A stretch of DNA of 34,556 bases, from the NCBI GenBank assembly GCA_029339195.1, contig JAPTJF010000572.1, positions 1-34,556 of the forward strand, given 5' to 3'. Below the pieces are notes generated by a model that saw only the letters and a list, made by a program, of their open reading frames with translations, ran no database searches and had not been told where the DNA came from. The translations under genes were made by a program, and so were the position numbers. The stretch is from Micractinium sp. NFX-FRZ (taxonomy: Eukaryota > Chlorophyta > Trebouxiophyceae > Chlorellales > Chlorellaceae). Shown in pieces: positions 11,501 to 33,993 of the stretch. Numbering within the stretch: position 1 is the first letter of the stretch; each line of letters begins with the position of its first letter.

Positions 11501-14500
11501 CGCCCTTGCCCCCAGCCTTCCGCGCACCCTTGCCCACCCTTTGCCCCACCCTTTGCCCCACCCTTACCCCGCACCCTTGCCTCCGCACCCGCCCCCTCCC
11601 TTGCCCCCTCCCTTGCCCCGCCTCAGGCTCACGTAAAACTCCAGCTGCCCGGGTGTGCGGTGCTGGCGGAAGCCGTACTTGAGGTCGGGGGGCAGCGGGA
11701 TGTTGAGCTTGGGTGGGATGTCGCAGATGCCGCCCCCCCAGGCCCACACTGCGGGGTGACAAGGGGTGACAAGGAGGGGTGGGAGGAGCATGTCAAACAT
11801 GCATCCCAGGTCGGCTGAAGGGGTGTGGTGTGGGCCAGAGGGGCACCGGTAGTCAACCACGCCACACGCCCCGGTGTCAGCCCCCCTCCCTCTTGCTTCC
11901 AGCCATCACCCACACCTCATGGTCAGCCACTGCCCACGCTGCCGGCCGCCACACAGCGACTCCAACCCACGACGCCCACCTGTCTCCACCACACAATGAC
12001 TAAAGCTAAAATAATACACGCCGCCTACCTGTCTCCTCCACCCAACGACTAAGCATGATTTCCAACCCATGCCGCCCACCTGTCTTCACCACCCAACAAC
12101 TAAGCACGATTCCAACCCATGCCGCCCACCTGTCTCCACCACGCGGAAGACGTCCTGGTTGACCGACCACGCCGTGCTGCCCAGCGCGTTGAGCGCCTCG
12201 TACACGTGGCTCAGCCCCGCCCCCCGCCCGCCGCGCATCTCCTCGTCCGCGTTGTCCAGCATCTCCTGCTGCAGCCGGCTGCCGCGGATGCGCATCACTG
12301 CACAGCATTCAAAGGAAACAACATAAGCAGTTGGAAGGTCGGCCTGAAATGGGGGGACTGCCTCGTTTGCGTCGCGAAGCATCGGAGCACAGGTGGGCGG
12401 TTCAGCCCTGTGCCTTTCCCCGCTACTCAGCCCCACCCCACCACACCCACCCGTGTTACGCAGCGTCAGGTGGCCCCCCAGGTTGTTGCGCAGCCATGGG
12501 ACGGGCGGGACGAGCATGGGCAGGTACTGAGGCATGAACACCTCCACCATCTGCGGGGGAGGGAGGGAGGGGAGGACGCCGTTCCAGGTGGCAGGCAGAC
12601 ATGCAGGCGTGAGCACATGTGTGGGGGTGGGCGTCCGGTGGAGGGGGCAGGCAAGGCACTACGACATGACGCGTGCCACAGTCTGCTCGTGAACTGCCAC
12701 CCTGCAGCGCCTTCCGTGCGCTGTGGGGCCAACACGCACAACCACTGTCTATAACGCCCTGTAACGCGCAATGAGCCGGGTCAAGCATAGCATGCACGCG
12801 CCTGGTGCGGCTTGATGCGCGCCATGATCTGCTCGTGCGCGCACAGGATGCCGTACTTCTTCCACACGCCGCGCGCGCTGCCGTCGTGCCCCAGCTCCAG
12901 CTTGTGCCAGAAGGCGGGCACCGACTGCACCCCGCCGCCTGGCCGCTTGACATCGATGCGGCAGCTGTCTGTGAGAAGCTTCATCAGCACCACACCCACC
13001 TGGGCCAGTAGAGGGAGGGAGGAAGGGACAGGAGAGGGTGGGAGGGAAGGGGTGCAGTGTCAGGGCGGTGCCATTTGGCACCAGCCGTCAAGTGGGCGGC
13101 CCACCTGCCTGGGGAGGGATCGAGCGAGGCAGGGCGGAAGGGAGGGGAGGGGGCACTTCCGCAAGAGTCGACACGGCAGCAATCTGTGAGCACAGCTTCT
13201 TCAACGCCGCAGGCTCACAGGCCACACAGATCCTTGATGCCCAACACACCCCCAGCAGCCGCCTCGCTCCTGGGCCGGCCCAGTGTGCGCCAGCGCCACA
13301 TCACCTGCCGCCCCACAAAGGCCCTGCACGCCCCACCCAACAACCTCACGGCAGGGTGGCCCTAGGGCCGCCAATTAATGTTCCTTGATATCATCATTTC
13401 TGATTATTACTGCAAGTGGGACCGGTCCCACCTTGGCCAGTATGTCCGAGTGCCACGTCACCTCCTGCCCCTGCAGCACGCGCCGCGCCTGCGCCTGCAC
13501 CCGCTGCAGTGTCGTCGAACCCTCCTTGGGCACGCGCACCGCCGCAGACAGCCGCCGCAGACGGTCCTCAAAGTCGCTCGTCTGCGGGGCGGGCAGGCAG
13601 GGGGGATGGGGGAGGAGGCAACAGGGGTGTGTTGCGGCGGGTGCGCCGGTGTGGGGGGTGGCGGGGGCCAGAAGGTTTGGAGGGCATGGGGGGGCAGGGC
13701 GCCCGCCGCAGCCGCACGTCACAGCCGCTCGCCTGTCCTGGTTCGTGCAACCCGCCCCACCATTCCCTGTTTCATGCCGCTGCACACACCATCGTCTTCC
13801 CCCCACCCACTGCCTCCCCTCAAGCTTGACCGCAGCAGTTCCGCATGATGCCACGCCTCCCAAGAACCCTCACTACCACCCAACCCTGCCCGCTCTCTCC
13901 TCCCCCTTGCCTCTCCTCTCAATCATTGATTAATTGATTAATTATTAATTCATTCATTGTACCTCGCTGCAGCAACACAAAAGCCGTCCCTGAGGTCTGT
14001 ATCGCAAGTTCCAACTGCGGAAAAACGGACTGTAAACACAAACAAGCCTCTCCCCACCCCGCTCACCGTGTACCAGTCGTGCGGGTCCAGCGGCAGCACC
14101 TCCCCCTGCTCCCGCAGCAGCCCCCCAATGTGCAGCCACTGCTGCCAGTCGCCCTCGGGCAGCACCGCTGCCGGGTCGGCGGCGCGCGCCGCCTCCAGCT
14201 GCTGCCGCAGGCGGCGGCCCTGCAGACGGAGGTGGGAGCGGGCGGGCAGTGGGGGCGTGGGGGCGTGCCGGGTGGCAACTGGGGGCGTGTGTGGGGCGAG
14301 CAAGGAGGATAGATAGGGCAGCAGAGCGGGGTCCCCCCCAGCTCACAAGCACCCGCACAGCAATCATGGCAAGCATGTCAAGCCCAGCCGTCCACCCCGC
14401 CTCCCCACCCCCTGCCCACCCCACCTGCTGGAACAGCTCCTTCACCTCCTGCCGCTTCAGGTTGTGCACGTGCGCCTCGTGCTGCAGCTTCTCCAGGTTC

Positions 14501-16520
14501 ACCTGCCCCTCCACAGCCTGCGGGAGGAAGCGCACGCATGGAGGCCAAACAACAATCAGCGCTGCACCGGGGCTGGCAGGCGCTACACAGGAGTGCTGCA
14601 GCTTGTCTCACGTGTGCCTGGCCCTCCGCAGCCGGGCACGCGAGGCAAGGAGACGTGCGTGGTGTGGTGTGGTGTGGTGCAGTGGGCGGCCAGAGAGAGG
14701 TCTAGTTTGTCTGCATCTGTTAACTATGCAGCCTCTGTGATACACCCGGGGATTGGGTCTCCCTCCCCACCCCCCTCCAGCCACCCTCCAGCCGCCGTCC
14801 TGCCCCAGTGTCACACCTTGCCAATGTTCAGCGACAGCCTCGTGACGCGGGCCTGGCCGGGAGAGGAAAAGGCGCCGCCCGCGTCCTCCGCCGTGACAAT
14901 CGCATTGATCACGCTGCGGCAAGAAAGGGGGGGGGGGGGGGGGGGGGGGGGCAAGGACGCAAGGTGGGCAGGTGAACCGGGCAGCCGCAACCATGTTGAT
15001 CATGTAGCTGCGAGCACTGCCCAGGCCCAGCCATGTGACCCCAGGGTGTGCATGGCAGTTGTGCACAGGGCGCAGCACACCTGACAGGACCTCCCCTCTC
15101 ACAGCACAAACTCCTCCCCACCATAAGCACTCCGCAATGACAAATGCCCTCCACTGCACCGGCACCCCACTACGGCCCTAACACAGCACCAGCCGTCACG
15201 GGCCCTGTAACTGTGCTGCCCCCCAACTAGGTGACCTTCCAAGCTGCACCGCCCTGCCACTGGGGGCCCGCCACCGCGGGCCCGCAAGGTGCCCGCCCAG
15301 CTCCCCGCCCCCACCTGTGCATCGTCAGCACCGCCAGCTGCTCAGGCTCCAGCAGCAGCAGGTAGGGGCCATACACCTTGCGGTCCACCCCCTTGGCACC
15401 CTGGATGATCTGCGGGCAGGCAGGCAGGCAGGCAGGCAGGCAAACAAGGGGAGCAGGACGGGGGCAGAGTGCGTGGGCACAGAAGCAGCGGCGGCGGACG
15501 CGGCGGCAGCGGCAGCGGGGGAGTGGTGGGCAACACAGCAGTGCGGGTTTGACCCCGAGCGTCACTCCTGAGTGCAGTCACCCCCTACCCCACCTCTGCC
15601 GTAACCCACACTCGCACTCTGCACACGCCCACCTGCCCACCCGCCTGCTCTCGCTGGAAGGCCTGCTGTGATAAGTGCCAGTTCGCTTGACCGGCACGTG
15701 CCCCACCCTGCCACCCACACTCTCTAGCAGCCCTCCCACCCACCCGCGTCTGTTCCCGCTGGATGGCTGCCGTCATGGGCGCAAACCACTTGAGCAGCAT
15801 CTGTCGGGCCTCGGGCATGGCGGCCGCCTGGCCCCGCGCTATCGCCGACAGGTGCTCCTTCTGGTACCGCGCCCGCGTGGCGTCCAGCGCCTTGGTCTCC
15901 AGGATGATCTGGCGCTGCCAGTTACGCCGCAGCTCCCGCCCCGCTGGCGTGTCGTCCATCCATTGCTGGTGCCACGTCATCGCTTGGAGCGCCGGCGACA
16001 TGGGCGGGGGCGCGGCGGCGGCGGCGGCGCCCGTCGTATCAGCCAGCTGATGCTGCTGGTGCCCCAGGATCTGGGTGAGGCCCATGAAGGAGGAGAGGCG
16101 CAGGTGGTGCGCCCCGTCGTCCGTGCCGCGCACCCGCGGGCTCCGCCCGTGCAGCGCGGGCTTGTGCCCCAGCTGCGCCATGCGCGGCGCCGCGGCGGCG
16201 GCCGCGTCGTAGGCAGCAACCGTGGAAACGCTCACACCTGCCCCTGCTTCTGCAGCTGCTGCTACTGCCGACCCTGCTGCTGCCTCTGCTGCGTGGGTGG
16301 CCGCGGAGGCCGCCGCACCGCCGCTGGCTCGGCTGGCGGCAGCCGCCGCCGCTGCCGCGGTGGCGGCGCCCTCTTCTGCCGCCTGCGGCGCTGCCTCCGC
16401 TGTGAAAGCTCGCAAGTACCCAGGGGGTAGCCGGGCGCCGGGTGAGGGACCACCCTGCGCCTGGCGAAGCGCCCGCAAGAGCGCCCTGAGCACCGCATGC
16501 CCGTGGGCCCCGCCCTCCAT
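5506..16520 (-). CDS. RPOT: Organellar (probably mitochondrial) phage-type single-subunit RNA polymerase
   Basis: ATG is at 16520-16518. The 24 exons are 16520-15744, 15409-15315, 14913-14817, 14517-14425, 14219-14067, 13581-13432, 12999-12802, 12550-12451, 12297-12130, 11748-11633, 11215-11100, 10694-10520, 10172-10085, 9775-9547, 9220-9153, 8822-8686, 8387-8288, 7970-7897, 7621-7547, 7264-7203, 6974-6854, 6610-6475, 6041-5938 and 5631-5506. They total 3558 nt (1185 residues), with every junction in phase. The N-terminus has Arg and almost no acidic residues, like a mitochondrial presequence. Family blocks run in order: [20 protein letters not shown] (about 270-290), VDFRGRAYP, motif [19 protein letters not shown] (Asp889), motif B with Lys960 and Tyr968, [27 protein letters not shown], motif C HDSFWTHA (Asp1118) and a YFFS terminus. 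These match T7 D537, K631, Y639 and D812. It should transcribe organelle genes. A Gly/Ser insert occupies 795-824. Confidence 0.95.
7267..7305. repeat. Tetranucleotide microsatellite (GATG)n
   Basis: About seven GATG units followed by ATTG units lie in an RPOT intron. The repeat abuts the acceptor of exon 7264-7203, so in the transcript it reads as (CATC)n directly before the splice site. Confidence 0.95.
9291..9314 (-). repeat. Intronic copy of the RPOT exon 15 acceptor edge
   Basis: Bases 9291-9314 resemble 9200-9223 (plus-strand AAGGGTTCCTCTGCTGTCCACCTG is the copy, not written further). The copy lies 91 bp from the true edge and includes the acceptor AG of exon 9220-9153. It is intronic. 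Confidence 0.65.
10400..10492. repeat. Imperfect tandem duplication in an RPOT intron
   Basis: Two copies of a block built on TGTAAC-TGAGC-GGTCTCCCTCAT lie about 50 bp apart, near 10410-10436 and 10460-10486. They lie in the intron between exons 12 and 13. No function is evident. Confidence 0.8.
10829..10915 (-). repeat. Intronic copy of RPOT exon 12 acceptor edge and adjoining intron
   Basis: Bases 10829-10915 repeat about 10662-10748 at an offset of 166 bp. The shared block covers the first codons of exon 12 (KEPRFY), its acceptor and about 50 bp of intron. It is the longest of the exon-edge copies. Indels and changes in the coding part show that it is decayed. Confidence 0.8.
11033..11058 (-). 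repeat. Intronic copy of RPOT exon 11 donor edge
   Basis: Bases 11033-11058 repeat 11092-11117, the 3' end of exon 11 with its GT donor, 59 bp away. The donor GT in the copy is altered, so it should not splice like the original. Confidence 0.75.
11971..12140 (-). repeat. Four tandem copies of the RPOT exon 9 donor site, about 50-bp period
   Basis: The plus-strand blocks at 11971, 12020, 12071 and 12121 each contain a near-identical sequence. On the minus strand each reads GTGG(T/A)GGAGACAG or a close variant followed by GTGGGC or GTAGGC. The block at 12121-12140 is the true donor of exon 12297-12130. The other three lie downstream in the intron, each keeping a plausible 5' splice site. Reading past the true donor soon meets a stop, so using the extra sites would truncate the protein. 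Confidence 0.85.
13163..13205 (-). repeat. Intronic copy of RPOT exon 7 5' coding edge
   Basis: Bases around 13174-13205 resemble 12959-12990, the start of exon 12999-12802, with a shift of 215 bp. On the minus strand the copy still encodes a stretch like LTDCCRVD, against LTDSCRID in the exon. It lies in the intron before exon 7. Confidence 0.65.
13920..13962. repeat. AT-rich simple repeat island
   Basis: A block of ATTGATTAATTGATTAATTA-type repeats stands out in an otherwise very GC-rich intron of RPOT (between exons 5 and 6). No coding or splice role is visible. Confidence 0.9.
14927..14951 (-). repeat. G25 homopolymer (C25 in the RPOT transcript) serving as polypyrimidine tract
   Basis: Twenty-five consecutive G on the plus strand. 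In the RPOT sense this is a C25 run that ends 12 nt before the acceptor of exon 14913-14817, followed by TTTCTTGCCGCAG. Its length is likely variable between strains or assemblies. Confidence 0.95.
15415..15443. repeat. Simple repeat (GCAG)n in RPOT intron 1
   Basis: About seven GGCA units immediately precede (in transcript sense) the acceptor of exon 15409-15315, giving a (TGCC)n pyrimidine-rich tract before the AG. Confidence 0.9.
15636..15668 (-). repeat. Intronic copy of RPOT exon 1 donor edge
   Basis: Bases 15636-15668 resemble 15739-15771, the 3' end of exon 1, at a shift of 103 bp. On the minus strand the copy still encodes FQREQA, against IQREQT in the real exon. It lies within intron 1. 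Confidence 0.75.
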
Positions 16521-17737
16521 CCTGTCGGGTCTCCTCCAGCTGCTGTTTACTTCAGCTTGCTATTAGTGCCGGGTTTTCGGGATGAGCAGCCACTGCATGC
16601 ATGCTGCTGCTGCTGCTGCTGCCGTGGCTCCAGGCGCCAGCTGTGCTCATTACCCAAAGGGCTTCATGCGACGCTAGCGGGCAATGGGAGCGTCCGGTTG
16701 AGAGAGGAACCCCCAGGGGCTTGGGCGGGCGGCATGTGAGATGTCGACAGCAGGATGAGGGTGTGGTGCAGTGGCCGCTTGGCAGGACTTAGGCAGCTCC
16801 CTGGTACAGCGCACTGAGAGAAGGTTCCGGTGCTTAGGTGGGTGGCGGCACCCTGCCGCCGTCGCTGCTCCTGCCGCCTGCTGCTGCCGGCACCTGCCGC
16901 CCTATTGCGGCTGTCACCCTGCTGCTGCGGCTGCCTTCAAGCTCGCAGCAGTGTGACAGGCTGATTATCATCAGGACACCCGGTAAGCTTTACCATGCAA
17001 GCCACCCGTTGTCGTGTTCGCACTACGGACCGAGGGTCGAGCGGCAGGTGCTGGGCGGTGCTGAGCAGCGTAGGGTGCCGAAGGGTGGTGGAGAGGTACC
17101 ATCTGCTGGCGGGAGTGCATTGCACGTTTGCGACTGCAGGGTTCCACACACGCCGTCATGCAGCACTGGTGCCGTCACCTACACCAGACTCAAAACAGCA
17201 GCTGCTGCACAAGGCCACAGTGCGCTCCCCGAGCCTGCCCAGCCAGGCGTGCGCAGCAGATGTGTGATCTTTGCTTGCGTGGTAGCTAATTTGGGAGGGG
17301 TCACATGAATGGGCACATGTGGGCCACAGGCGTGCATGCTTCAGGGGCCTTCCCACAGCGCGAGCTGCCGTGCATATGCAGGGCGGGTCCCAGCTTTACG
17401 CTGCCGCAGGCCAGGCGGAAGAGATGAATGAGCATTTGTCTAGACCGTCCCTATGCTGGTCCCCTTCATCCATGCCTCACAACTGTGCCATTGGACCCCA
17501 CACACAACAGCGTGTCCACTGTGACCAGCCCCATGGTGCACCCGACGGCAGCGAAATATCTCACCGAAGCGCAGCACAGCACAGCACCACAAGAGCGCCC
17601 AGAACGTCTCCCTCGCCGTCGCTGTCAAGTTAGCGCTACCCGACCAGCGTGCCCGCATCCCTTGTGTATTTGTGCTAAAAAAGAGTGCGTCTTGCGTGCC
17701 TCCACACTTCGGTTCCGTGTAGCGCCTGGCGTGCAAC
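16521..17737. promoter_or_regulatory. Divergent upstream region shared by RPOT and the bZIP gene
   Basis: The ATGs of RPOT (minus) and the bZIP gene (plus) are 1217 bp apart and no convincing gene lies between. The region must hold both 5' UTRs and promoters. A short (CTG)n run lies near 16600-16621. No TATA box or clear ACGT-core element was seen. Small open frames here have no family resemblance. Confidence 0.55.
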
Positions 17738-20456
17738 ATGCAGTGCAGCGCCGCACTGGACATGCTGGGTGGAGCGGGCGGCAACTGTTTCCTGGACCAC
17801 TTGGCAGGCGGCTTGGAAAAGGCTCACGGAGGTGGGTCGCTGCCTGCGGCCGTGCCTTTTCGCCCGGGTTGGTGTGCACACGGTTTGTGGGCTCACGACG
17901 GCCGTATGCACGCATCCCAACCTTCCGGGAGGGCCCCTACCGTGCGCCCGGCAGGGTGCAGAAGTATTTGTAAACCCATCTCCTTTTGCCCGAAGCAACT
18001 CCTTCCCGCTCCCTCTGTCCCTCCTTCAATTCCAGCAGACAGTAGAAGCAGCATTGACGCGGCGGCGCTGCACAACAACAGCCTTGGTGCAGTGTCGGCG
18101 GCTGTCGACGCCTCGGCGGCGGCGGACCTGCACCGCACTAGCGTTGATGCCGTGCGTGCCGCGCAGCACGCAGCGCAGCTGTCCGGCATGGACATTCCCA
18201 TGCTGGAAGACCTGCTGCCTCTGGAGGACCTGCACGACCCGTTTCTGGACGATTTGGCGGCAGCGGCGGGGCACCCTGAGCAGCACGCCCCGCACCACCA
18301 GCCGCAGCCGCACCACGCGCAGCTGCCGCCGCCGCAGCAGTATGCGGCGGCAGGCGGCATGCACTTTGGGTGCGCACCAGGGCTGGACCCCTCTGACCCC
18401 TCCTCCGCCTTTGCGCACTTCAGCCCCACGGCGGCCGGTTTTTTTGGCATCCCCGCATATGCCGAGCCCGACAGCCCCGCGGCTGCGCTGCTGAACAACG
18501 CAGCGGCGCCCTCGCCCCTGGTGCTGCCGCCGTCAATGGCACAGGCACTTGCGCAGCACAGCCGGCAGGGAGCGGCGCTGCTGCCGGGCGTGGTGCTGCC
18601 TGGAGGGCTGCAGCACGCACAGCAGCAGCAGCAGCAGCGGCAGGGCCTGGTGGCTGTGTTTGGGGCACAGCATGTGTTTGCGGCCTCACAAGCGGCACAT
18701 GCCGCCCACGCTGCGGCAGCCGCGCAGGGCCTTCCACCTGCCATTGCGGCGGCGCAGCAGCGCGCCGCGGCGGCCACGCTGCAGCAACAGATGCAGCAGC
18801 AGATGCAGCAGGCGGCGCAGCAGCAGGCGGCGCAGGCGGCGCATGCAGCGTCGTTGGCGCAGCAGCCCTCCCCGCCGGTGCAGCTGCTCTCCCCGCCGGC
18901 GCAGCAGGCGCAGGCCGAAAACGCGGCCAGCTGCGACCCTCCAGGCGGCGCCGGCACCAGCCACATGAGCAATGGCAGCAACGGCAGCGCAGCAGCCATG
19001 CTGCAGCGCAGCCCTTTCGAGGCCGCCGCCAGCGCGGGCGCAGCCGCGGCTGCCGCTGCCGCTGCCCTGCAGCGCTATTCCGATGACTCTTCGGGCGGCG
19101 AGCACCTGGAGGAAGGTGAGCGCTGCTGCGCTGCTGCCAGGGCAGCACCACTACTACTGTGACCGACTGACTTGTCCCGGGCAGGGCACGACAGGGGCTG
19201 GGAGGGGGGGCGCTAGGGTGGCAGACCTCCCGCCCGCTTGCGTGCTCCATGCCATGCCTGTTTGTGGATCGCATGCATGCCTGACTGGGTGAACCCCCCT
19301 GGCTCCCACCTGCCCACCTGTCTCTGCCCCCTTCCCTTGTGCTCTCCCGCCTGAAGACGTCCTGGACGATGCGGCCGCGCCCTCCGGCATGCCCTCCTCC
19401 GGCGGCCCCACCCCCACCGCCTCTGGCTCCGTCTTCACCACCGGCGACGGCACGGCGGCGCCCGCCAAGCGCGGCGGCCGCCCCCGCGAGAAGAAGAGCT
19501 ACGACGCGCTGATCGACCCCAACCTGCCGATTGAGGAGATCCGCAGGCTGAGGCGCATGCTGTCCAACCGGGAGTCCGCGCGGCGCTCGCGGCGCCGCCG
19601 GCAGACGCAGGTGTCCACGCTTGAAGTGGAGCTGGAGCAGCTCAAGACAGGTGGGGTGGGGGGCGGTGCTGTGCGGTGCCGTGCACGCCACGGTGGGGTT
19701 GCACACTCTCCACCTCCTCCGATGCGGTCCTGCCTCCCTGCCTCTCCCCCTGTGCACGTCACCTCTGTCCCAAGGCTACCAGCCGCCGACTCTTGTGCCA
19801 TGCCCCCCCGCCCGCCTGTGTCCCGTCCCCACCCCGCCCCGCAGACAAGGAGCGGCTGCAGAGCGAGCTGCACCAGACGTCCAGCTTTGCGCAGCAGCTG
19901 TCGGCGGAGAAGCAGCAGTTGCTGGCTGAGCTGGAGCGGCTGCGCTGCCAGCTGGCGCAGGTGTCCACGTCAGCACCGCCCGCCCTGTCGGCACCCATGC
20001 CAGCACCCGTGGCTGCCCCGGCCGCCCCCGCGCCGTCTGCCGTGCCTGCGCCCATTCTGGGGACAGCTGCCCCCACGAGTGTGGCCATGCAGCAGGCGCC
20101 TGCAGTGGTGCCCCCAGGCCTGCCGGCGCCCGGCGGCCGCCTGCCGCACTTCATTGAGCAGGCGCAGCGCCTGGCAAACAAACTGGTGAGGGTGCCTGCC
20201 CAGCGGTGGGCTGGCCTGGTTCCCTGTCTGCCCCCGCGCCTGCTTGCCTGCAGCCCAGAGGGGCAGGGCAGGCAGAGGCGCCTGCGTGGCTGTGAAGAAG
20301 AGAATGCTGGTGCTGCTCCCGCCGGCGTTCCCGACCCCGGCTCGCTCGGCTGGCATGAGCTTGCCGTGATGTTGCCCTCCTGACCTCACCCGCCTGCCCT
20401 CCGTCTGCTTGCAGAACCAGCCTCGCCCCAAGGAGGAGGCGCAGGCTGCGCACTAA
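17738..20456 (+). CDS. Plant-type bZIP transcription factor (group C/S-like basic region)
   Basis: Exons are 17738-17831, 18039-19115, 19357-19650, 19845-20185 and 20415-20456. They join into 615 residues ending at TAA 20454-20456. The basic region is near residues 453-472 (MLSNRESARRSRRRRQ) with the exact plant spacing N461-x7-R469-x9-L479, then leucines at 486, 493, 507, 514 and 521 (Thr at 500). Just upstream is KRGGRPREKK (428-437), which contains an AT-hook core and is a likely nuclear signal. An acidic-hydrophobic patch at 82-104 (MDIPMLEDLLPLEDLHDPFL) looks like an activation domain. The middle is Ala/Gln-rich with His/Pro runs; the C-terminal quarter is Pro/Ala-rich. Such proteins bind ACGT-core DNA as dimers. 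Intron 1 (207 nt) has no stop and is a multiple of three, so its removal is inferred from good splice sites. The target genes are unknown. Confidence 0.9.
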
Positions 20457-22116: not shown

Positions 22117-25100
22117 ATGTCTGGGGGTGCTGGCTCCGGCGACGCGGCCTCACAGCTGGCGCAGCTGCGCTCCGCCGCGGCCGCTGTGCGGGCGGCAGTG
22201 TCGACGGCGGCAGCGCTGCCGCCGCCCGGCGAGGCACCCACAGCTGAGAGCGCCGACTGGGAGAGCCGGCTGGCAGCAGTGAATGCCGCAGTGGGCGGCC
22301 CCGCCCGACCCACCGAGGAGCAGGCATGCAGCAGCGGCCCCGCGGGCGACAAGGGCGGGCGCACAGACGACACCGCCAGCAGGGCCGTGCTTGCGCCCTA
22401 CCAAGCAGAGCTCATCAACTCGATCTCCAACTGCCCCGGCAACTGCGTCACCTTCCTGCCACTGGGTGAGGCCCCCACACAGCCCAGAGCGCCGACACGC
22501 CCCGCGCCTGGCTGGCCCGATGCCTCCACGCCAGCACCCGCACGCCGCTGCCCCCCCGCTGCCTCCCCTTGCCCCCTCCCCCACCCCTCTGCCCCGCCTG
22601 CCCCTGCTCCGATGCCTCCCTCTGCCCCTTCAGGCCTGGGGCTGCGCTCTGTTGTGGACTCGGTGCTGGTCAGAGCCGTGGAGCAGCACCCAGGGAAGCA
22701 TGTGCTGCTGGTCGTTGACCGCCCCGCGCATGCGCTGTCACATGCACAGGTGACTGATGTGCAGCCGGGTGCTGGGCAGCAGGCTGTTGGCTGCTTGCTG
22801 TGAGCATCTCTGGGTGACTGCCCACCGTGCGGACCCAGCCAGCCCAGAAGGGATGCCCGGGCTGTGTGCTGCTTCCCACCTGCCAGCGGCAACCCTGCCC
22901 AGGCTGTTTGCTGCTTCCCACCTGCCAGCGGCAACCCCCGCCCCGCCTGCACCCAGCGCTGCCCGACCAGCGCCGCATCCTTGCCCCGCCCTGCCCTGCC
23001 CCCTGCCTCCCGCCCGCAGCGCCTGCGCACCGAGCTGGGCCTGCCCACTGCCGTCTTCTGTGGCGGCGACTTTTTGTACTCCTTCCCCCAGCAGTTCCAG
23101 TCGAGGTGGGCAGGGAGGGGCGTGGTGCTCAACGCTGTTGGCTCTGGTGGCCTTTCCAGTGTGCGCCCGGTGGCGCCAATAGTGGCGGCTGGGCAGGTTC
23201 GCCCAGTACAATGCATTCCCCAAAGGCTCGCTGTCCGCAAGGCAAGGCAACGCCGTGCTGATCGTGCTGAGCGCTGTCCGGCTGGCTGCCTCATCTCCCC
23301 TTGACACGCCCTCGACCCCCCTGCAGCCGCGTCCTCGTGTTCACCGCCGGCCTGCTGCTGCGCCTGCTCAAGACGGGGGTGTACTCGCTTGAGCAGGCCT
23401 CCCTCATGCTGCTGCTGGATGCATTCACGGGTGCGCCACCACACCCGCAGCCTCTGCCTTCTTCCTCTTGCGTGTATTGCATGTATTGCATGTATTGTTA
23501 TTGAGGCAATGTGTGCTGTTGAGAGCAGGGTTGCCCTGCTGCCTGCCCTGCTGCCTGCCCTGCCCTGCCCGCCTGCACTGATGACCAGCCACTCCTCCAG
23601 CAGTCCGTCTCTGGCTTGTGAACTCGCTTCTCACTGCACCCTCCGCCCCGCCTGCCCGCCCTACCCCCGCTGCAGTGGTGCGCAACCACCCGTCCAACAC
23701 GTTGGTGCGCGAGTACTGGCGCGGGGCGGAGGAGGGGCGGCGGCCGCGCGTGGTGGGCGTGCTGGCCTCCCAGCTACCCTCCAAGCCACGCCCCTTTGAC
23801 CGCCTGCGCCAAAACCTGCGCAAGCTGTGCCACAGCCTGCAGGCGGCCCTGCTGCTGCCCGCGGGGTGCGGGCTGGCGCAGATGGAGGCCCAGCTGCACC
23901 ACGACTCCATCCAGCTGCACAGCTATGCGCTGGGCACCCCGGAGGAGCGGCTGGCCTCGCTGCTGCAGCAGCACCTGCTGGGGCTGTGGGACGTGCTGCA
24001 CGAGTTTGGGCTCAACCACTTTGGCAGGTGGGGGCGCTGCGCTGCGGGCTGGCGGGGCGAGTGCTGTGCTCTGGGCTGGCAGGGGGAGTGCTGCGTTGTG
24101 GGCTGGCAGGGGGGAGCGCTGCGGCTGGAAGCCTGGGGGGGACAGGGCGGGTGGAACCGCGCAAGCTGTGGGATGTGCTGCATGCCTGACAGCTGGCAGA
24201 GTGTGCCAGGCTGGACGGCGCCAGGTGGCAGCTGTGTAGTGCAGCCGTGAGGTGCAGGCGCAAGTGCTGCACGAGAGTGGGCTAGATCACTTGGGCAGGC
24301 AGGGGGGAAGCGGTGGAGAAGGAGGGAGAGGGGGTGGGCTGGCGAGTGGTGTGACTGTTGCTTGTTGTTTTGCAAAGTTGCTGCTGTGGTTGCCACCTCC
24401 GCGCCGCCCACCAAGCAGCACGCAGCCAGAAGGTTTTGCCCAGTCGAGCACGGCAGATCCGCTGGGTGCCCCTCCCTCCCTCCCTCCCTCATCCCCCTGC
24501 TTCTGTGCCTCTCTGCCCTCCCTGCCTTTCCCTGGCAGGCTGGTGCAATTCGCGGCGGCCAGCGGCGGCGGTGCCGCTGGCGGCGGCGGCACCCCGGGCA
24601 CCCTGCCAGGCACGCCGGCAGCCCCGGGCGCTACCCCTCCCCGGAGCACAGGCGCCGGCGCAGCAATGGGCGTGGCCGAGCAGCACTCGCCCGCGCTCAG
24701 CACGCCGCTCTCCGCCCGCCCGCTGTCAGCCGCGGGCAGCCCTGCCGCGGTGGAGGGCAGCCCCGGCACGCCGCTGCAGGGGCTGCTGCAGGGCGGCGGG
24801 CAGGGCGGGCACCACGCCGGGGGAAGCTCGGCGGCGGCTGCGGCGGCTGAGCAGCCCGACCCCATGCAGCACGACTGGGCGCAGGTGGAGCTGCAGGTGA
24901 GAGGGGGAGCCCGCCAGCCTGGCAGGGAGGCCACGTCCTAAGCCAGCAGGGGTGTGGGGAGGGGAAGGTCAGGCAGGCAGGGGTGTAATGACGGCGTAAT
25001 GACACAGGGGGAGGGCGGGCCCCAGGCAGCACGACTGGGTGCAGGTGAGGTCTCCGGTGGCGTGGGACAAAGTGAGGTGGTGTCACGGATGTGCAAGCCT

Positions 25101-28100
25101 TAACACCAGAAGCGGCAGCAGGCTGCACCGCCGCCGGGTGCTGGTGTGGTGCTTGTTTGGTTTCGGGTGTTGTGGGTCTCGTGGGTTGTGAGCCAGCGCC
25201 GCTGTCCTGGCCCTGTCGGCGGCCTGTCTCCCGCCCCGGCCCCACCCATCTGTGCCTGCAAGTGCAGCCGCAGCCTCTAGCCTCTGACGCAGCATCCAAG
25301 TGTCAACAGCACCATTGTCGGCAAAGTGTTGCCCGCTCTTACCCATCCTATCGCTGTTCACACGGCATGCACAGCCTGTGGCACAACAACAAAGTATATA
25401 GAGAGGCCGGCACCCCTGGGCTCAACACATGTTGACGCACATATGTGTTGTGTGTGTGCATTCGCAGGTCATCCACAGCCTGTGGCACAGCAACGCGCTG
25501 CCTAACAAGGGGGAGCATGTGCGGGAGCCTGATGCGCTGGCACTGCAGATGCACGTGCTCGACTGCGTGCGCGCCCTCAGGTAGGGGGTAGTGGCCGGCT
25601 GCACGTGCATGCACATGCATGCACACGCCTCCTGTGCTGCTGCTGCTGCTCTGCCAGTGGCTGGGCCCTGCCGGGACGCTTGTGTTGCCTCCCCTGCCTG
25701 CCCTGCCAGCCTGCACGACTGTGTGGGCACAATCATCCTCCTAGCTGCCCGCACATGGCACCAGGCCCTCACCACACCCGTTCCCCCCGTTCTCTGCTGC
25801 CTGCCTGCCTGCCTGCCTTCCCCGCAGGGTGCTGCTGGAGCAGGGGCCCTCCGCCTGCCTGGCGCGCCTGCCCCAGGCGCTGGACTCGATTTCAGACTTT
25901 CTGGCAGAGGGGGCGGGACCCGGGGGGCTGCCTGCCGCAGCGGCCCCGCTGCGTGCGCGGATCCTGCAGGTCGTCGGCGCCTCGCCGCTGCTGCCCTGGG
26001 CGCTGCAGGAGCAGAAGCGGGCGACGGCAGCGGTGGAGGAGGCTGCGCGGCGGGCGGCAGAGGCGGTGGTGGCTGGTGAGCGGTCGGGGTCGGGGCAGGT
26101 CGCGGGGCAGGCGGGAGAGGAGAAGAAGGAGGCAGCGTCGTCTGGGGCGGCAACGCCGCCGCGGGCGCCGCCGCCGCGGCCGCGTGCCTCCCCGCAGCTC
26201 AAGCCCAGCCCCCGGCGGCTGCCCTCTGTTGCCAGCAATGCCAACTTGGCCGACGGTCCTCAGGCAGCGGTGGCGGCCGGCAGCGCCCGGGTGGCAGCTC
26301 TGCTGCAGCTGCTGCAAGAGCTGCAGGTCGGCTGCCAGCTCAGCGGGCAGCGCCGGCTGACAGCTGTCGTGGCTGGCAGCCGCGAGGCGGTGGGCATGCT
26401 GCAGCGGGTGATTGCGGGCACTGATGAGCTGCGGTCTGCAGAGGTGCGGCAGCTGGGTGATGCATTGGCAGACCCAGAAGGCCTGAGCAGGGCATCGAGC
26501 ACTGCAGCTGCCGCAGCTGTGGCAGCGGGCCTGAGCCGGGCCGCCAGCCTGGGCCGGGCCGCCAGCCTGCGCCTGAGCCGGGCCGCCAGCCTGGGCACGG
26601 CCGCCAGCGGCGGGCTTGCACGCACGTGCAGCGGCGCAGCAGCTGCTGCTGCCACCTTCAGCAGGGCTGCTAGCACTGTGGAGCCAAAAGCAAACGGCCA
26701 GCTGGCGGCAGTGCAGCAGGAGGGTGAGGCCGCCCAGGGCGCAGCAGAGGCAGTCGAGGCTCTGGGAGATGAAGGGGCACTGGCGGCGGCGGCGGCAGCC
26801 GAGGGCGCCAAGCCGGCAGCAGGCGAGGCAGCGTCAGCAATGGGTGCCGCTGCCGCCGAGCCTGAGCCAGCAGCCGAGGGCGGCGAGGAGAGGACGGAAG
26901 CAGCAAGCGAGGCAGCAGGCGCGGCAGCAGAGCCAGATGCCGGCGGCGGCGAAGACGCCGCCGAGGCAGAGGCTGCAGCAGCAGGCGCAGCGGGCACAGC
27001 AGGCGACCAGGCAGCCGACAGCGAGTCTGGCAAGGGCGCCCTAGATCTTGCCACAAGTCCTTCGGAGACCGAGGCTGCGTTTGCGGCCGCCTGGGCGCAG
27101 GCAGCGCCCACCGTGCGGGTGGGGCAGCTGGTGGTGCACCTGCTGACGCCTGCTGACCTGGCGGCGCTGGAGCGCCACATCAGCTGCTACCACTCCCTCG
27201 TCTGGTGAGCTAATACGAACACATCTCATCAATAGGGATGCGAAAGAAACGCAGAATCAAGGCACAGGGCGGGGTGGGGCCACGCGCAGGCGGGCTTGCG
27301 ATGCTGGGTGTGGCAGCAGCAGGCCGTGAGGCCTGCGTTGCTATGCACAAGCGCTTGCATGAGCTTTGCAGCAGCAGGCAGCAACCGCACCGCTGCCTGG
27401 CTCAGGGGCTGCCCTTACCCAGCTGCTTGTCTATCCAGCCGCGTACTCCACTTGCTGCTCCCCGCATCTGGCCCCCCGCTGTGCGTCTCCGCTGCCTGCA
27501 CGCTGCATCCTCCTGCCGCTGCACCTCATAGTGCCATGCCTGTATGAATTATGCGCGCCCGCCTGCCCCACCCCCCCTGCCTGCCTGCTCGCAGGTACAG
27601 CGCAGGGGACGTGCTGCACGCCGCCAGCCAGGAGCTTGAGTCGGCAGCCCTGGCCGCCTGCCACCGCCTGTCGGCCGCCTACACGCTGGCGGCGGCGGCG
27701 GCGGCGGATGCCGCCCGGAAGAGCCGGCGCAGCATCCGGCGGCTGGAGTGCCACGTGCTGGCCACGGGCAGCCAGGTGCTGGCGCTGGGCGAAGTGCGGC
27801 GGGTGGACCACTCCCTCAAGGTGCGCCACCTGAGGCCCTGCTGCTGCTGCTGCGTTTGCATGATCAAGTGCTGCCTGTTGGTCTGAGCCGAGTGCGGCGG
27901 GGTAGCAGCGTGCTTCCCACGTGTGCTTGTGCTGCCTGCATGTTCCGGGCGCGGTGCAGCGGGTGGCTCAGGGTATGTGGCGGCCTCTGCAGCAGCTGCT
28001 GCTGCTGCTGCTGTGCTGCTGTGCTTGTGTGTACTTTGCTGTCTTGTTCATTACGCGTGCTGCCTGCGTGTGGGGGGGCAGTTGTGGCGAGTGCATCACT

Positions 28101-31100
28101 CACCCCTCAAGGTGAGGCGTCTCTGACACAGACTTCCTCTACAACCGTCCTCTCAAGGTGAGGCGTCTCTGACACAGAGTGTCTGTCTGTCTGTCTGTCT
28201 GTCATGTCCCCCTGTAGGCCGCGATGGAGCTGGTGCAGCTGGGCGACTCGGCAGCCGAGGAGAAGCTGACCATGCTGGCGCACAGGAACACGGCGGGGGT
28301 GCTGGAGGCAGAGGTGGGTCGAAATGCGGGCTCCCAGCCGGCTGCGGCAGGCAGACGCTGCCAGCGGAGCTGGGGCTGTGTCTGGGTGGGCTCAGGCAGC
28401 CACCAAGAGCACAGAGCACAGCGGCCTCAGCGCACATAATGTGGACAGATGTCCGAGATGGTTTGGCTGAGCCACCGCTGGCATCAGCAGCCTGCCCTCC
28501 CCACCTGCGCCAGCCCTTGGCCCCCTCGCTCACCAACCCTGCCCCTGCCTCCGCACCCCTCCCTGCCTCCCTGCCTCAGGCGCGTGCCATTCTGGAGATG
28601 CTGTGCTGCGGGCTGTGTGGCGCAGCCCCTGCCTTTGCCACCATGACAGCCAGCCCCTCACGCAAGCCCAGCAGCTCGCGGCGCCTGGCGGCAGCCGCCG
28701 CTGTGGCAGCCGCCGCGGCCGCTGAGGCTGCAGAGGGCGCTGCCAGCGGAGGGGCGGCGGCCACCGAGGGAGGCCAGGTGGACAGCGGTGGTGCAAATGG
28801 CAGGGGAGCCAGCAAGGAGGAGGGTGAGGCAGCCGAGGCAGCGGCTGCGCTGCCCCCCGGCGAGTCCACAGCAGAGAGCGCCGCGGGAGGCAGCGGCGTG
28901 CAGGCAGCGGCGGAGGGAGAGGAGGGAGGCGCAGCGGCGGCGGCGGCGGCGGCGGCGCAGCCCCAGATCCTGTTCCGCTCCAGCATCACCCTGCCAGCAG
29001 CCTACTTCCCTCCCGAGCGCTTCCACTCCCAGGGCGTCAGCATGCCGATGGACGTCTTTGTGGGGCCGCCCCTGCCCTCCGAGGATCAGGCCGCCAACGC
29101 GGCCGCCCTGCTGGCGCTGGCGGCGCTGCACCGCCTGGGCATCATCGTCCGCTACTGGCCCTCCCGCCTGCTGCTGGCGCAGCACCTGCTGCCACGCAGC
29201 CTGGCGGCCGCTGGGGTGCCCGGCGCGGCGCCGCCGGCGCAGCAGCCGGCCGCCGGCTCGGCGGCAGAGGCGGCTGGGGCCGCGTGGGCGGCCGCCACTG
29301 GCGTGCCGGCGGCCGGCCTGCAGCTGCAGCAGATGTCTGCCCAGCAGCAGCAGCAGCAGCAGCAGCCCTCCAATGTGATGAACTTCTTCTGTCCCCTGTG
29401 CAACGTCGCGGCCACCGGGCACAAGGTGGGTGACAGCCTGGCATCCAGCTGGCCGCACAGCTGGCACCCCACCAGCACTGCTTGGAGCGCACCCTTGCCC
29501 CCAATTGCTCCGTTTGGCTGCTTGCCGTCGCCACTGCCACCGCCCTTTCCTCGCCACATACCACCTTGCATGCTGCCTGCCCCACCTACAGTGCGGCCCC
29601 TCTGCCAATGCAGGCAGGCCTTTTACGGCCACCTACCCAACATCCCATATTCGAAGCAGCTGCCTCACAATGCATCAATGATTGAATTGCCGCCCTCCAT
29701 GGGTGCTTGTCGTGCAGGCATTTGACGCCCACCTGCGCGGCTTCCGCCACCAGCGGCGCATCAAGCAGGCGCAGCTGCTGCAGCAGGGACAGGAGGTCAG
29801 CGCCATGCTGCAGGGGCTGCTGCTGGATGAGACATCCCCTGCGGTAGCGGCGGCGGCTGCTGCTGCCGGCGCCGCGGGCAGCGGCGGCGGTGTGCAGGGG
29901 GCGCCGCCTGTAGCGGTGCGCCGGCCCGCTCTGGACGAGCTGATGGAGGAGGAGGAGGGAGGTGAGGGGGGGAGGTGAGGGAGGGAGGGGGGGTTATGAG
30001 GCCAAGATGTGGGCTCCATTTGAGAGGGTCCGTGGGTAGTGAGTGCTGTGGGATTCTTCACTCTCGGAAGGTCCCTGGTGAGGCGGTGAGGGAGGCAGGA
30101 TCACGGAGGTGAGGAAAGGAGGATGCCTAGAGAAGCAAGGGTCCACGCACATGCATACCTTCCTGCAGGCGACCACGGGAGCCCCAGCTGTGCATGCCAC
30201 CATACGTTGAGCCCATCCACCCGCTGCCCACAGACACGCCGCCGCTCACCTCCGCCCTCCTCTGCAGGCGACTACGGCAGCCCCAGCTTTGCCGACCGCC
30301 AGGTGTACAGCCCGGAGCCGACGCCGTACCGCTGCGACACCTGCGGGGTGTACTGCACCAGCGAGAGGCTGCTGGAGGCGCACACGCGGGGGCGCAAGCA
30401 CCAGCGGCGCGTCGCCGGCGTCGATTCGCCCGCGGGGCGGCCCTCCTCCCCAAAGTGCGCGGCCTGGCTGGCTGCGCAGGCAGGGATGTGCCTGGCCGTG
30501 TGCATGGCTGCCATGCAGCCGCCTGGCCGTGCGCATGAATGCATGCACACATACGTGTCCTGAGGGCCGTCCAACGAGCGCGCTGTGTGGCAGAGGCATG
30601 GGGTGGCAGGGCAGGGCGGGGGAAGAGTGGGTGCCTGCCCACCTTCTCAACCACCTACTGTCACCCTGACCCACCCCTCCCTCTTGCGCCACCGTGTGTG
30701 CCCCGTCCTGTGAGCAGGGTGCAGCCTCTGGTCACCCCTTACTTTTGCGCCATGTGTGGGCTGTACGCCACGAGCGAGGAGCAGCTGCGCATGCACATGC
30801 TGGGCAAGCGGCACACGCGCATGACCCAGCTGCACCGGCAGCGCATGCTGGGCGCTGCGGCGGCGGGGGCGGGCGGCGGCGGCGACGACGCCGCCCCCGC
30901 CAGCCTGCAGCAGCAGCACCACCAGCTGCTGGTGGCCGCCGCAGCAGCCGCCGCGCTCAGCAGTGGCGCCGCCGCATGGGTGCCTTCCTCCAGCAGCGGG
31001 GTGGCGTCCGCCTTTGAGATTGGGGAGTCCCCGCTGCCCTCCCCAGCCATGGGTGGAGGCTCCACCGTGGCACTGCTGGGGTCTGGGGCGCCCACGCTGC

Positions 31101-33993
31101 CGTCCTCCGTGGCAGACGGCATGGGGGGCGAGGGGGCGGTGGCGCTGCAGGGGCTGCTGCTGGATGCGTCAGGCAACCAGCGGATCTACCGGTGCGACCT
31201 GTGCGGCGTGGTCACCCCCTCACGCAGGCACTACGACTACCACCTGCAGGTACGAAGGCGGCGGTGGGTGGGTGGGTGAATGAGGCAGTGGGTGTGGTGG
31301 CCAGGGGCGCCGGCACCCTTGGGTGGGCGGGTGTAGTAGGGCCAGGCCAGGAGCAGGGGCAGGCTCCCGAGGGGGCTTCACCTGCTGGCGCGCTGGCGTG
31401 TCAGCACAGCCCCGCATGCGTCGGTGGGCACACCCCAGTGTGGCCAGGCAGCCGGCCCTGAGCCCTACAGCCTCCTCCAGCTGTCCATATCAGCTCCCCA
31501 ACTCGTGCCCCTCCCTCCCTTCCCCGCCCCCTATCTGCGCAGGGCATCAAGCACACGCGGCGCGCGATGCGGGCGCAGGGCCTGGACCCTGGCAGCGCCT
31601 CGCAGCCCGGCACCCCCGCCAGCTGCGGCAGCCCGGCGGGAGGCTCCCGCTCCTCCTCACCCGTCGGACGCGCCGGCCGCAGCCGCCACTCCCGCCACGG
31701 CAGCGCCGACTGGGGCGGCAGCTCGGGCGGTGTTGGCGGCAGCGGCGCCGGTGCGGGGGCGACGGCAGGGGCGCCTGACTCCGCCCCAGAGTCCCTTATC
31801 TGCTCGGTGTGTGGCATCATGGCCACCAGCGCAGTGAATTTAGAGGTAAGGTGGGACAGGGGGCGGGTAGGCCAGGCTGGCTTGGTTGGGGGCGGCGTGG
31901 CGGTGTGGGTGCGGTCACCCTGAGGGGCAGGGTAAGATTGTTGGATGCGTAGCAGCGGTGGTTTGGGGATGGTGACGTGGGTGTGGGCGGTTGTGAGGTG
32001 GCGTAGGGTGGAATGGCGGGCATGCGTGGGGCACCGCCCCTCCCAACTTGCACGCCTTGCTTGCAATGCCCCCCACCCGGCCCCTCCTCCCCGCGCCCCC
32101 TCTGCCCCCCGATCTGCAGGACCACTACAAGGGGCGGCGGCACCAGAAGAACGTGGAGCGGCAGCAAGCGCAGGCAGCGGCGGCGGCGGCGGCCGCCGCC
32201 GCCACCTCGGCGGCCGGCTCCACCAGCGGCCTGCCCCCGCTGCCGCCGCTCTCCACGGTGCCCTCCCCCTTTGCGGGGGCCGCCGCCGCCAGGGCCGGCA
32301 CGGGGCCGCCCTCTCTGCAGCGCATCCCCAGCCTGAACCGCTCCCAGAGCGGCATCACGCTGGGCGCCGATGGCCTGCGCCTGCCCTCGGGCGCGCTGCT
32401 GAGCGCCAACAGCCTGCTGGGGGCCACAGGCGGGCTGCAGCGCTCCACCAGCGACGTGTACGACGACTTCCCCTGCGTCAGGATTGGCTCCATACTGCTG
32501 CCCAGCTCAATGGACCTGCGCACCTTCTTGGGTGAGGGGGCGGGTGGGGAGGGGAGGAAGGGGGACGGAGGGCGGGAGGTGACGAGGGAGGGAGTGGGGA
32601 AGGGGGGAGGGAGGTGGCAAGGGAGGCGGCGGGAGGGAGGGAGGAAAGGAGGGAGGGAGCACACTGGGAACTCAGAGAGGGAGGGAAAGGGGTAGTTCCA
32701 TGCAGTGGGTGGCTGTGGGGGGGCCTGTGTGTGTGGTGTTTGTGACAGGAGTCAGTGTGTGCGGGGGGCGTGTGAGGTGGTTTGACTTGGCAACTGGCCA
32801 GGAGCAGGCAGGGGCCTTGCCGTGCCTGCCTTTTTGTGCCCTTTCACCCCACCTGCAGCGGGGGCGCAGCAACCTGGATAGGCCGGAGGAAACGTGCGCA
32901 CACACCTCCTCGCCACTGCTGAGCCACCAGCCACCAGTATCATCCAACCCGCCTCCCTCTGTGCTTTCCACCCACCTACCCTTTTTTTGCAGAGGAGATG
33001 CAGCACCTGGATGGGACGGAGGACATGGAGGCAGACCTCCTGCCCACAATTGAAGAGCACCACGAGACTTTAGGATCTGAGCTGGCGGCGGCTGTTGGGG
33101 TGGGCCTGGGCCTGCCGGGCAGCAGCAGCAGCGCCGCCGCCGCCGCCGCCGGCAGCAGCGGGCTGGCCGCCACAGCGCAGCTCTTCACCCCCTCGGCTTT
33201 GGCAGGAGGAGGCTCCCAGCAGCAGGCCTGGTCCTACCTGCCGGGTGTCGGCGGCACCGGCGCTGGCGGTGCAGGGGCCGGCAGCGGCACCGGCCCGGGC
33301 AGCGCGGGGGGCAGCCCGGCGCTCACCAGCCGCAGCGCAGGCGGCTCCACACCCCGGGGCCCGCAGTACCAGTATGGCGGCAGCCGCACCCAGCCAAGCT
33401 CGCCTTCAATGTACCTGCAGCCCGCTGCCGGCGGCGGGGCCTTTGGGCGGGGCGGCGGCAATCGGCCGGGGTCCGCGGGCGGCGGCCCCCGCCTCTCACG
33501 CTTTGCTCAGGACCAGCTGCAGCAGGCGCAGCAGGCGCAGCAGCAGGCAGCGCAGCAGGCGGCACAGCAGCAGGCGGCCGCGGCTGCGGCAGGGCTGGGG
33601 TATGCTGGGCAGCAGTTCGGCGCGGGCTATGGGCAGCAGTACGGGCACGGGCAGCAGTACGGTATGCCCCCGGGCGGCACCCACACGATGGCCATGGCGC
33701 CAGGCATGGCAGGCGGGTATGCTATGCAGCACAGCATGGGCATGACTCAACAAGCGTACAACGCTTATGTGGGCGGGGCCGGCTACAGCCCTGCCTACGA
33801 TCCGTCAATGTCGCCCGCCCTGGCCGCGCAGCAGGCAGCCGCCATGCAGCACCAGCAGCAGATTGCAGCGGCTTATGGGGCGGGCATGGCGGGGCACCAT
33901 GCGGCCGCGTACAGCGGCATGGCGGCGCAGCAGGGGCAGGGGTATTACCCGCCCCCACCGCCGCCGCCGCCGCCTTCCAGCCGGTACCGCTGA
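22117..33993 (+). CDS. Dicer-like degenerate helicase fused to five dsRNA-binding-type zinc fingers, no RNase III
   Basis: ATG is at 22117 and TGA at 33991-33993. The 17 exons are 22117-22465, 22634-22749, 23020-23105, 23327-23430, 23676-24027, 24539-24896, 25468-25580, 25828-27204, 27595-27820, 28218-28313, 28580-29425, 29718-29961, 30268-30454, 30718-31249, 31543-31845, 32120-32531 and 32993-33993. They total 6702 nt (2233 residues), all junctions in phase. Order: Dicer-like DExD/H core (about 100-335), a Hel2i-like stretch (LGLWDVLHEFG), a helicase-C-like part (about 645-950) with long low-complexity inserts, a DUF283-like domain (about 1188-1262), five C-x2-C-x12-H-x5-H fingers (1330-1771), and a Gln/Gly/Ala/Pro-rich tail. 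Walker A and DECH are lost. PAZ, RNase III and dsRBD are absent from the frame and the rest of the window. I infer a non-cleaving dsRNA-binding protein derived from Dicer. The gene itself is well supported; the Dicer kinship rests on motif order read by eye. Confidence 0.8.
22867..22938. repeat. Tandem duplication, period about 42 bp
   Basis: The block TGCTGCTTCCCACCTGCCAG plus GCGGCAACCC occurs twice in intron 2 of the Dicer-like gene, nearly unchanged, which suggests a recent duplication. Confidence 0.9.
24040..24125. repeat. Three tandem copies of a G-rich unit, about 28-31 bp
   Basis: The unit, roughly GTGCTG-G-GGGCTGGCAGGGG, is repeated three times just after the exon 5 donor of the Dicer-like gene. 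Confidence 0.8.
24263..24299 (+). repeat. Intronic copy of the exon 5 donor edge
   Basis: Bases 24263-24299 repeat 23992-24028, shifted by 271 bp. The copy encodes VLHESGLDHLGR against VLHEFGLNHFGR in the exon, and the GT donor has become GC. It lies within intron 5. Confidence 0.85.
25023..25050 (+). repeat. Intronic copy of the exon 6 3' edge
   Basis: GCAGCACGACTGGGTGCAGG repeats the sequence at about 24866-24885 with one change, about 160 bp away, and is followed by GTGAG. It encodes QHDWVQ against QHDWAQ and lies in intron 6. Confidence 0.85.
25367..25390 (+). repeat. Intronic copy of the exon 7 5' edge
   Basis: Bases 25367-25390 match 25471-25494 with two changes, at a shift of 104 bp. 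The copy encodes MHSLWHNN against IHSLWHSN at the start of exon 7. It lies in intron 6, which therefore holds decayed copies of both its borders. Confidence 0.85.
26480..26684 (+). repeat. In-frame repeat encoding several RA(A/S)S units
   Basis: A GC-rich tandem repeat in exon 8 encodes about five copies of SRAAS, GRAAS or SRASS between residues 711 and 776. Each matches the R-x-x-S pattern used by basophilic kinases. The surroundings are Ala/Gly-rich and probably disordered. Confidence 0.8.
28099..28180 (+). repeat. Two tandem copies of an exon 9 donor-like block
   Basis: CTCAAGGTGAGGCGTCTCTG plus ACACAG occurs twice, near 28107 and 28153. Its first part resembles the exon 9 end and donor at 27813-27830 (CCCTCAAG then GTGCGCC). 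Both copies carry a better donor (GTGAG) than the real site. They are in intron 9. Confidence 0.75.
28181..28203. repeat. Simple repeat (GTCT)n
   Basis: About six GTCT units lie just before the acceptor of exon 28218-28313, where they serve as its pyrimidine-rich tract. Confidence 0.9.
28580..29240 (+). other. Region encoding a Dicer dimerisation (DUF283)-like domain with an Ala-rich insertion
   Basis: Exons 10-11 encode HRNTAGVLEAEARAILEMLC, which resembles the TGAxVxLxSAVxLLxxYC start of this Dicer domain. After an Ala/Glu-rich insert of about 110 residues come FRSSITLPAAYFPPERF, then VFVGPPLPSEDQAANAAALL and ALHRLG, ending in LLAQHLLP. Plant Dicers show the same order: FxCTIxLPxNAP, VGPxxxSKxxAKxxACLxAC, LHxLGxLxDHLLP. 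The same exon continues without a break into a poly-Gln run and the first two Cys of zinc finger 1, so the Dicer-like part and the fingers belong to one transcript. Confidence 0.55.
29612..29641 (+). repeat. Intronic copy of the exon 12 5' edge (half zinc finger)
   Basis: Bases 29614-29641 resemble 29714-29741, shifted by 100 bp. The copy encodes QAFYGHL against QAFDAHL, the second half of zinc finger 1, including the AG acceptor. It is in intron 11 and does not continue as a finger. Confidence 0.75.
30163..30194 (+). repeat. Intronic copy of the exon 13 5' edge
   Basis: Bases 30163-30194 repeat 30262-30292, shifted by 99 bp, with the CTGCAG acceptor intact. The copy encodes GDHGSPSC against GDYGSPSF and lies in intron 12. 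Confidence 0.85.
32855..32895 (+). repeat. Intronic copy of the exon 17 5' edge
   Basis: Bases 32855-32895 resemble 32989-33028, shifted by 134 bp. The shared part includes the AG acceptor and the block AACCTGGAT / CACCTGGAT. It lies in intron 16. Confidence 0.7.

Follow-up and report, generated by a model that had tools for sequence, protein, structure and literature searches.

In Dicer, the helicase-DUF283 half is normally attached to a nuclease, and docking to dsRNA, to Dicer or to Dicer cofactors is known from Dicer helicases, DUF283 and RIG-I-like helicases. To our knowledge, DUF283 is found only in Dicers, the related helicases LGP2, RIG-I and DRH-1 carry neither DUF283 nor a finger array, and the zinc-finger proteins JAZ/ZNF346, dsRBP-ZFa and DRG9 are not fused to a helicase. 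Two RIG-I-like helicases have been linked to Dicer: C. elegans DRH-1 works inside a Dicer complex and hydrolyses ATP (PMC11095941), and mammalian LGP2 inhibits Dicer (PMC5813259). Rice DRG9 possesses five Znf346-like fingers, recruits an mRNA into stress granules and protects it (PMC10957929). DUS16, a dsRBD protein, acts as the partner of DCL3 in Chlamydomonas (PMC12026948).

The gene described here occupies 22117..33993 on the + strand of the window, the whole 34,556-nucleotide stretch of Micractinium sp. NFX-FRZ DNA that was analyzed; all features of the gene given below lie on that strand. Its 17 exons encode a 2233-residue protein composed of a Dicer-type helicase, a DUF283-like domain, five CX2CX12HX5H fingers of the JAZ/zf-met type and a disordered tail with a conserved motif. 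Like Dicer and Dicer-like proteins (plant DCL1 and DCL4, algal Dicers), it aligns over Hel1 and DUF283 in that order and is predicted to adopt a RIG-I/Dicer helicase fold. Unlike them, it has no detected PAZ, RNase III or dsRBD domain, has lost the GKT and DECH motifs, and carries five fingers and a disordered tail instead. It belongs to the same helicase superfamily as the RIG-I-like receptors and Dicer-related helicases (LGP2, RIG-I, C. elegans DRH-1), but it resembles these far less in sequence than it does DCL1, DCL4 and AncD1D2, the last an ancestral construct of the Dicer helicase; animal Dicers match it no better than these helicases do. With JAZ/ZNF346, dsRBP-ZFa and rice DRG9 it shares multiple spaced CX2CX12HX5H fingers, and the dsRBP-ZFa structure 1zu1 is the best PDB match of the array. 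The proposed role of a non-cutting dsRNA-binding partner resembles that of the Dicer partners HYL1/DRB1, DRB4 and Chlamydomonas DUS16; however, those proteins use dsRBDs, whereas the window protein has a Dicer-like helicase-DUF283 module. Among the papers listed in searches of a literature collection with few subscription papers, none describes zinc fingers joined to the helicase-DUF283 half of a Dicer. The parts are known; what was not found described in those listings is their combination and the conserved, predicted-dead motor.

The gene model was obtained by splicing and translation and compared with homologous single proteins (P0002, P0003 and P0005). All 16 introns are GT..AG, the 6702-nt coding sequence contains no internal stops, and GC by codon position is 0.76/0.60/0.84, against 0.66 in the introns of the gene. 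This re-derivation reproduced the single open frame of seventeen exons and 2233 residues that the earlier note had claimed. A split into two genes before exon 11, which that note had named as a possible flaw, was not borne out: in exon 11 (28580-29425), a single frame runs through the DUF283-like domain and on to the cysteine pair of finger 1, and a gene boundary before this exon could not separate the two. The claimed helicase-DUF283-finger order is likewise supported and is conserved in other genomes, with the restriction that only Hel1 and DUF283 are demonstrable by sequence, Hel2i and Hel2 being predicted by a modest-confidence model. We take the gene to be correctly joined, its product being a pseudo-helicase derived from Dicer and carrying fused fingers of the dsRNA type. 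No second copy was found in the genome, either with 352 bases of the gene's DNA or by protein search; the latter gave one further match, on contig C763, at chance level (E 0.44, two stops). Elsewhere in the window, 10 of the 40 listed open frames were tried for other domains. Frames at about 5824-16559 (-) match a phage-type (organellar) RNA polymerase (PF00940, 52.7 bits; PF14700, 44.7 bits), with a further PF14700 match of 30.0 bits just below the cut-off of 30.1, and a frame upstream of the gene, at about 19293-20186 (+), has a bZIP domain (PF00170, 38.5 bits).

The helicase part shows only at the profile and structure level, a Pfam scan of the window protein having returned no helicase domain. 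When a profile of five family members was compared with all PDB chains, the top matches were AncD1D2 (8.4e-14), DCL1 (3.5e-10) and DCL4 (3.6e-9), followed by the dsRNA-binding zinc-finger protein ZFa (4.9e-4). DCL3, Dicer-2 and animal Dicer (0.011-0.026) tie with the RIG-I-like helicases in the same search (LGP2, RIG-I and Hef, 0.015-0.021), which leaves just three Dicer sequences clearly ahead. Helicase domain 1 (Hel1, 22378..23806, residues 88-262, exons 1-5) is defined by this search and by hhalign against a profile of up to 17 Dicer sequences, picked by eye from 120 of 922 matches, with significance taken from 20 column shuffles. Hel1 scores 82.5 against a shuffle maximum of 16.1. By contrast, the Hel2i-like insertion domain (23807..26029, residues 263-560, to which the WDVLHEFGLNHFGRL block and a disordered linker belong) and the Hel2-like domain (26267..28229, residues 640-1031, with a disordered linker at about 700-930 inside) score 15.0 and 14.2, not above their shuffle maxima of 22.7 and 15.9, and are placed by the structure model only. 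The predicted structure of a homologue matches whole RIG-I/Dicer helicases (Hel1-Hel2i-Hel2). This is a modest-confidence model, with a mean pLDDT of 53 and 33 of the 60 ten-residue blocks between residues 41 and 640 reaching 70; the whole-helicase matches listed have low TM-scores, of 0.19-0.26 by query length and 0.27-0.42 by target, with rmsd of 6.5-15.3. A Dicer-type helicase is recognized by profile in Hel1, while the complete Hel1-Hel2i-Hel2 fold is predicted at modest confidence. The N-terminal region does not fall into an unrelated fold, the outcome that the earlier note had named as refuting its claim. Dicers led the profile search; Foldseek and VIA put Hef and RIG-I-like chains first. 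In a Hel1 tree (171 columns, 20 of 21 sequences kept, P0015 dropped as gappy), the family forms one group with 100 UFBoot. The branch leading to it is very long (2.39) and is compatible with an origin within the algal Dicers as well as with an earlier one.

The ATPase motifs are replaced in all family members that cover them. Aligned with Dicers, motif I (Walker A) is present as a degenerate TFLPLGLGL without GKT (22450..22644, residues 112-120, spanning intron 1): G-K-T is found in 15/17 Dicers, the other two being gapped there, versus none of the four family members having the region. Motif II, DECH or DEAH in 17/17 Dicers, is replaced by DAF (23418..23426, residues 215-217) in 5/5 family members, including P0006, and D215, A216 and F217 are invariant in the four aligned members. 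The window protein thus has neither the Walker A GKT nor the DExD/H box of active SF2 helicases and RIG-I-like ATPases. The segment following motif II, ‘NHPYN’ in Dicers, corresponds to RNHPSNT in both the PDB profile search and the Dicer alignment (23681..23701) and is kept in the family as RN(H/N)PxNT, with H in 3/4 aligned members and N in P0005. Because GKT and DECH are lost across the family, the ATPase is predicted to be dead, with no ATP turnover. As judged from these alignments, a replacement that is shared and itself conserved suggests a stable pseudo-enzyme rather than decay.

The DUF283-like (Dicer_dimer) domain (28964..29257, residues 1188-1285, exon 11) lies after the helicase, at the position expected in Dicer. 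Pfam PF03368 matches a fragment of the window protein with 20.9 bits (E 3.8e-4), under the cut-off of 23.7, and is unlisted in the full-length scan; P0001, P0002 and P0003 give 18.1, 19.1 and 23.1 bits, all below the same cut-off. Pfam did not find Dicer_dimer in P0005, nor in P0004, from which the region is missing. The assignment rests on a separate profile comparison, in which hhalign gave 38.6 against Dicers and a maximum of 12.7 in 20 shuffles, the joint MAFFT alignment having misplaced DUF283. As for the nuclease half, the earlier claim that PAZ, RNase III and dsRBD are lacking agrees with the scans of the window protein. RNase III (PF00636/PF14622) was not found by Pfam in the window protein, P0002 or P0003, while the control P0007, a Parachlorella Dicer, gave 114.9 bits. 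PAZ (PF02170) and dsRBD (PF00035) were not found by Pfam in the same three proteins either, which is a weak test, as P0007 also shows neither; the RNase III result is thus the telling one.

The DUF283-like domain is followed by five fingers of the exact CX2CX12HX5H form: finger 1 (29390..29750, residues 1330-1352, spanning intron 11), finger 2 (30333..30401, residues 1445-1467), finger 3 (30746..30814, residues 1495-1517), finger 4 (31193..31554, residues 1644-1666, spanning intron 14) and finger 5 (31801..32143, residues 1749-1771, spanning intron 15), the last being the best-scoring stretch of the match to ZFa 1zu1. P0002 and P0003 have five such fingers each. In Pfam, the window protein matches zf-met (PF12874, 98.5 bits) and zf-C2H2_jaz (PF12171, Zinc-finger double-stranded RNA-binding, 63.5 bits), both above cut-off, as is characteristic of tandem JAZ-type fingers. 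The best PDB match of the array is modest (1zu1, E 6e-4), followed by SCAPER (0.0017); weaker matches include ZMAT2, PRP9 and some DNA-binding fingers, and PRP11 and ZMAT2 also appear in the family profile search. Fingers of the zf-met and U1 types are also found in splicing and ribosome proteins. From these motif and profile matches, the array likely binds dsRNA. Further downstream, the tail contains a C-terminal motif, FPCVRIGSILLPSSMDLRTFLEE (32453..33006, residues 1875-1905, spanning intron 16), recognized by its identity to homologues (P0002 21/31, P0003 23/31, P0005 20/31). In four members this stretch, with the consensus FPCVRxGDxxLPSSMDLRxFLEE, reaches roughly the conservation of the fingers although the rest of the tail is disordered. 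The motif, possibly a docking site, matched nothing else in the genome at E <= 10.

Homologues are few. In a family search of a very large protein collection, 7,991 candidates were scored and five of them reached E <= 0.001, and a second, alignment-based search retrieved three at E <= 0.01 among 7,985, two of them already known and the third a new partial sequence, P0006. Homologues with the same order do exist, the earlier note having proposed a search for orthologues: P0002 from Parachlorella kessleri (2455 aa) and P0003 from EukProt (1870 aa) each carry the whole domain order with five fingers in a single predicted protein. P0005 (1089 aa) has the same order, with the C-terminal motif and the helicase part retained, but its DUF283-like stretch is shortened and only the fifth finger is present; this reduced form is either a real reduction or a gene-model error. 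P0001, P0004 and P0006 are partial homologues, P0004 and P0006 with apparent intron read-through. Conservation across the family is concentrated in the domains. Identity to P. kessleri P0002 is 97/175 in Hel1, 51/110 in residues 443-560, 40/83 in DUF283, 11-18 of 23 in the fingers and 21/31 in the C-terminal motif, against 67/275 in the tail. Neither search returned a family member named as Auxenochlorella or Chlamydomonas, among matches of which several bear no species name and candidates scored only if they shared 5-residue words.

The genome (66 Mb, 838 contigs), whose closest named relatives in protein matches are Parachlorella and Auxenochlorella, also encodes other silencing genes. A separate Dicer lies on contig C635, with a DUF283 match over the cut-off (31.5 bits) and downstream exons in which platform-like, RNase IIIa, RNase IIIb and dsRBD-like regions were recognized by eye. 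When 403 spliced residues of it were searched, 922 of 7,991 scored proteins matched. A Parachlorella protein carrying RNase III domains came first, at 50% identity; next were Dicers of Auxenochlorella, other algae and plants. Of the separate, complete Dicer that had been suggested as a check, the RNase III-bearing part is present; its helicase part would lie where the contig reads N, so the gene may or may not be complete. An RNase III family search of the genome gave one exon each on C12 (L001, 41.2 bits) and C265 (L002, 35.6 bits), and missed C635, where introns split the domains. An Argonaute is found on C161 and two RdRP loci on C60 and C11. A DUF283 match on C137 (16.2 bits) lies opposite an open frame that, by eye, is presumably SMG9-like, and was dropped as chance. 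Further dsRBD matches occur on C269 and C715. On C715, frames L025 and L026, about 4 kb apart, have similar C-terminal dsRBD parts (GYGR[ST]KKDAEQHCAYQAL) and may be tandem duplicates encoding a dsRNA-binding protein. Parachlorella kessleri likewise combines a protein of the same architecture (P0002) with an RNase III-bearing Dicer (P0007; by Pfam, RNase III 114.9 bits and Dicer_dimer 78.2 bits). P0007 has Helicase_C only, without helicase domain 1 by Pfam, and by eye starts inside the helicase; its gene model is probably incomplete.

That the gene is an artefact, with two adjacent genes joined or a Dicer pseudogene in decay, is the least probable of the readings considered. High GC produces many chance open frames and the gene model was predicted from DNA alone, but DUF283 and finger 1 share a single frame of exon 11, the identical domain order recurs in other genomes, 224 columns are identical in 4/4 members, and Hel1 is far closer to P. 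kessleri than is the tail. Scarcely better is a front half derived from a RIG-I/Hef-like helicase, its DUF283 resemblance being due to chance. The Foldseek and VIA rankings favor such an origin, as does the PDB profile search in so far as RIG-I-like helicases score level there with animal Dicers and DCL3; however, fold ranks do not separate these sister families, Dicer sequences take the first three places among the helicase matches, six or more orders of magnitude ahead, and the DUF283 match sits at a Dicer-like position.

We put at roughly 45% the reading that this Dicer-related protein, with its motor motifs replaced, its cutter not found and five fingers added, binds dsRNA without unwinding or cutting it and acts as a partner of the separate Dicer. 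On this view, DUF283 together with the pseudo-helicase would attach to dsRNA, to Dicer or to Dicer cofactors, the flexibly tethered fingers would hold the duplex, and the protein would recruit or position dsRNA for Dicer. The contact with Dicer is one we infer, and the other dsRBD genes in the genome mean that Dicer could have another partner. A close rival, although on balance an unlikely one, gives the same anatomy the task of a guard or decoy that shields dsRNA from Dicer or keeps Dicer inactive, as LGP2 does in mammals: an absent cutter, a predicted-dead motor and dsRNA-type fingers fit sequestration equally well, but LGP2 falls outside the family of the window protein, and the sequence gives nothing to tell decoy from helper. 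Less likely again would be a factor that serves mRNA or ribonucleoproteins and has no part in RNA silencing, its fingers on structured mRNA or pre-mRNA and its dead helicase a protein-docking scaffold. The weak finger matches to the splicing proteins ZMAT2, PRP9 and PRP11 point that way, and rice DRG9 offers a precedent (PMC10957929). Against this, the N-terminal half is nearest to Dicer constructs and not to other helicases. The protein has also kept DUF283, a module not known to us outside Dicers.

Beyond the partner reading, a broader and more tentative proposal is that the protein is a Dicer paralogue of Parachlorella-related green algae in which a clamp of zinc fingers for dsRNA has taken the place of the cutter and the motor has been lost. 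It would then be a dedicated dsRNA receptor that does not cut but passes dsRNA to the true Dicer or keeps it back, and possibly a new class of eukaryotic dsRNA regulator. A conserved, independently kept Dicer half with a predicted-dead motor would naturally separate Dicer sensing and docking from cutting, and raises the question of what role a Dicer helicase serves without ATP hydrolysis or an RNase to feed. The family suggests an algal dsRNA-handling partner with zinc fingers in place of dsRBDs, and such a finger-based Dicer partner would differ from the dsRBD solution of Chlamydomonas DUS16.
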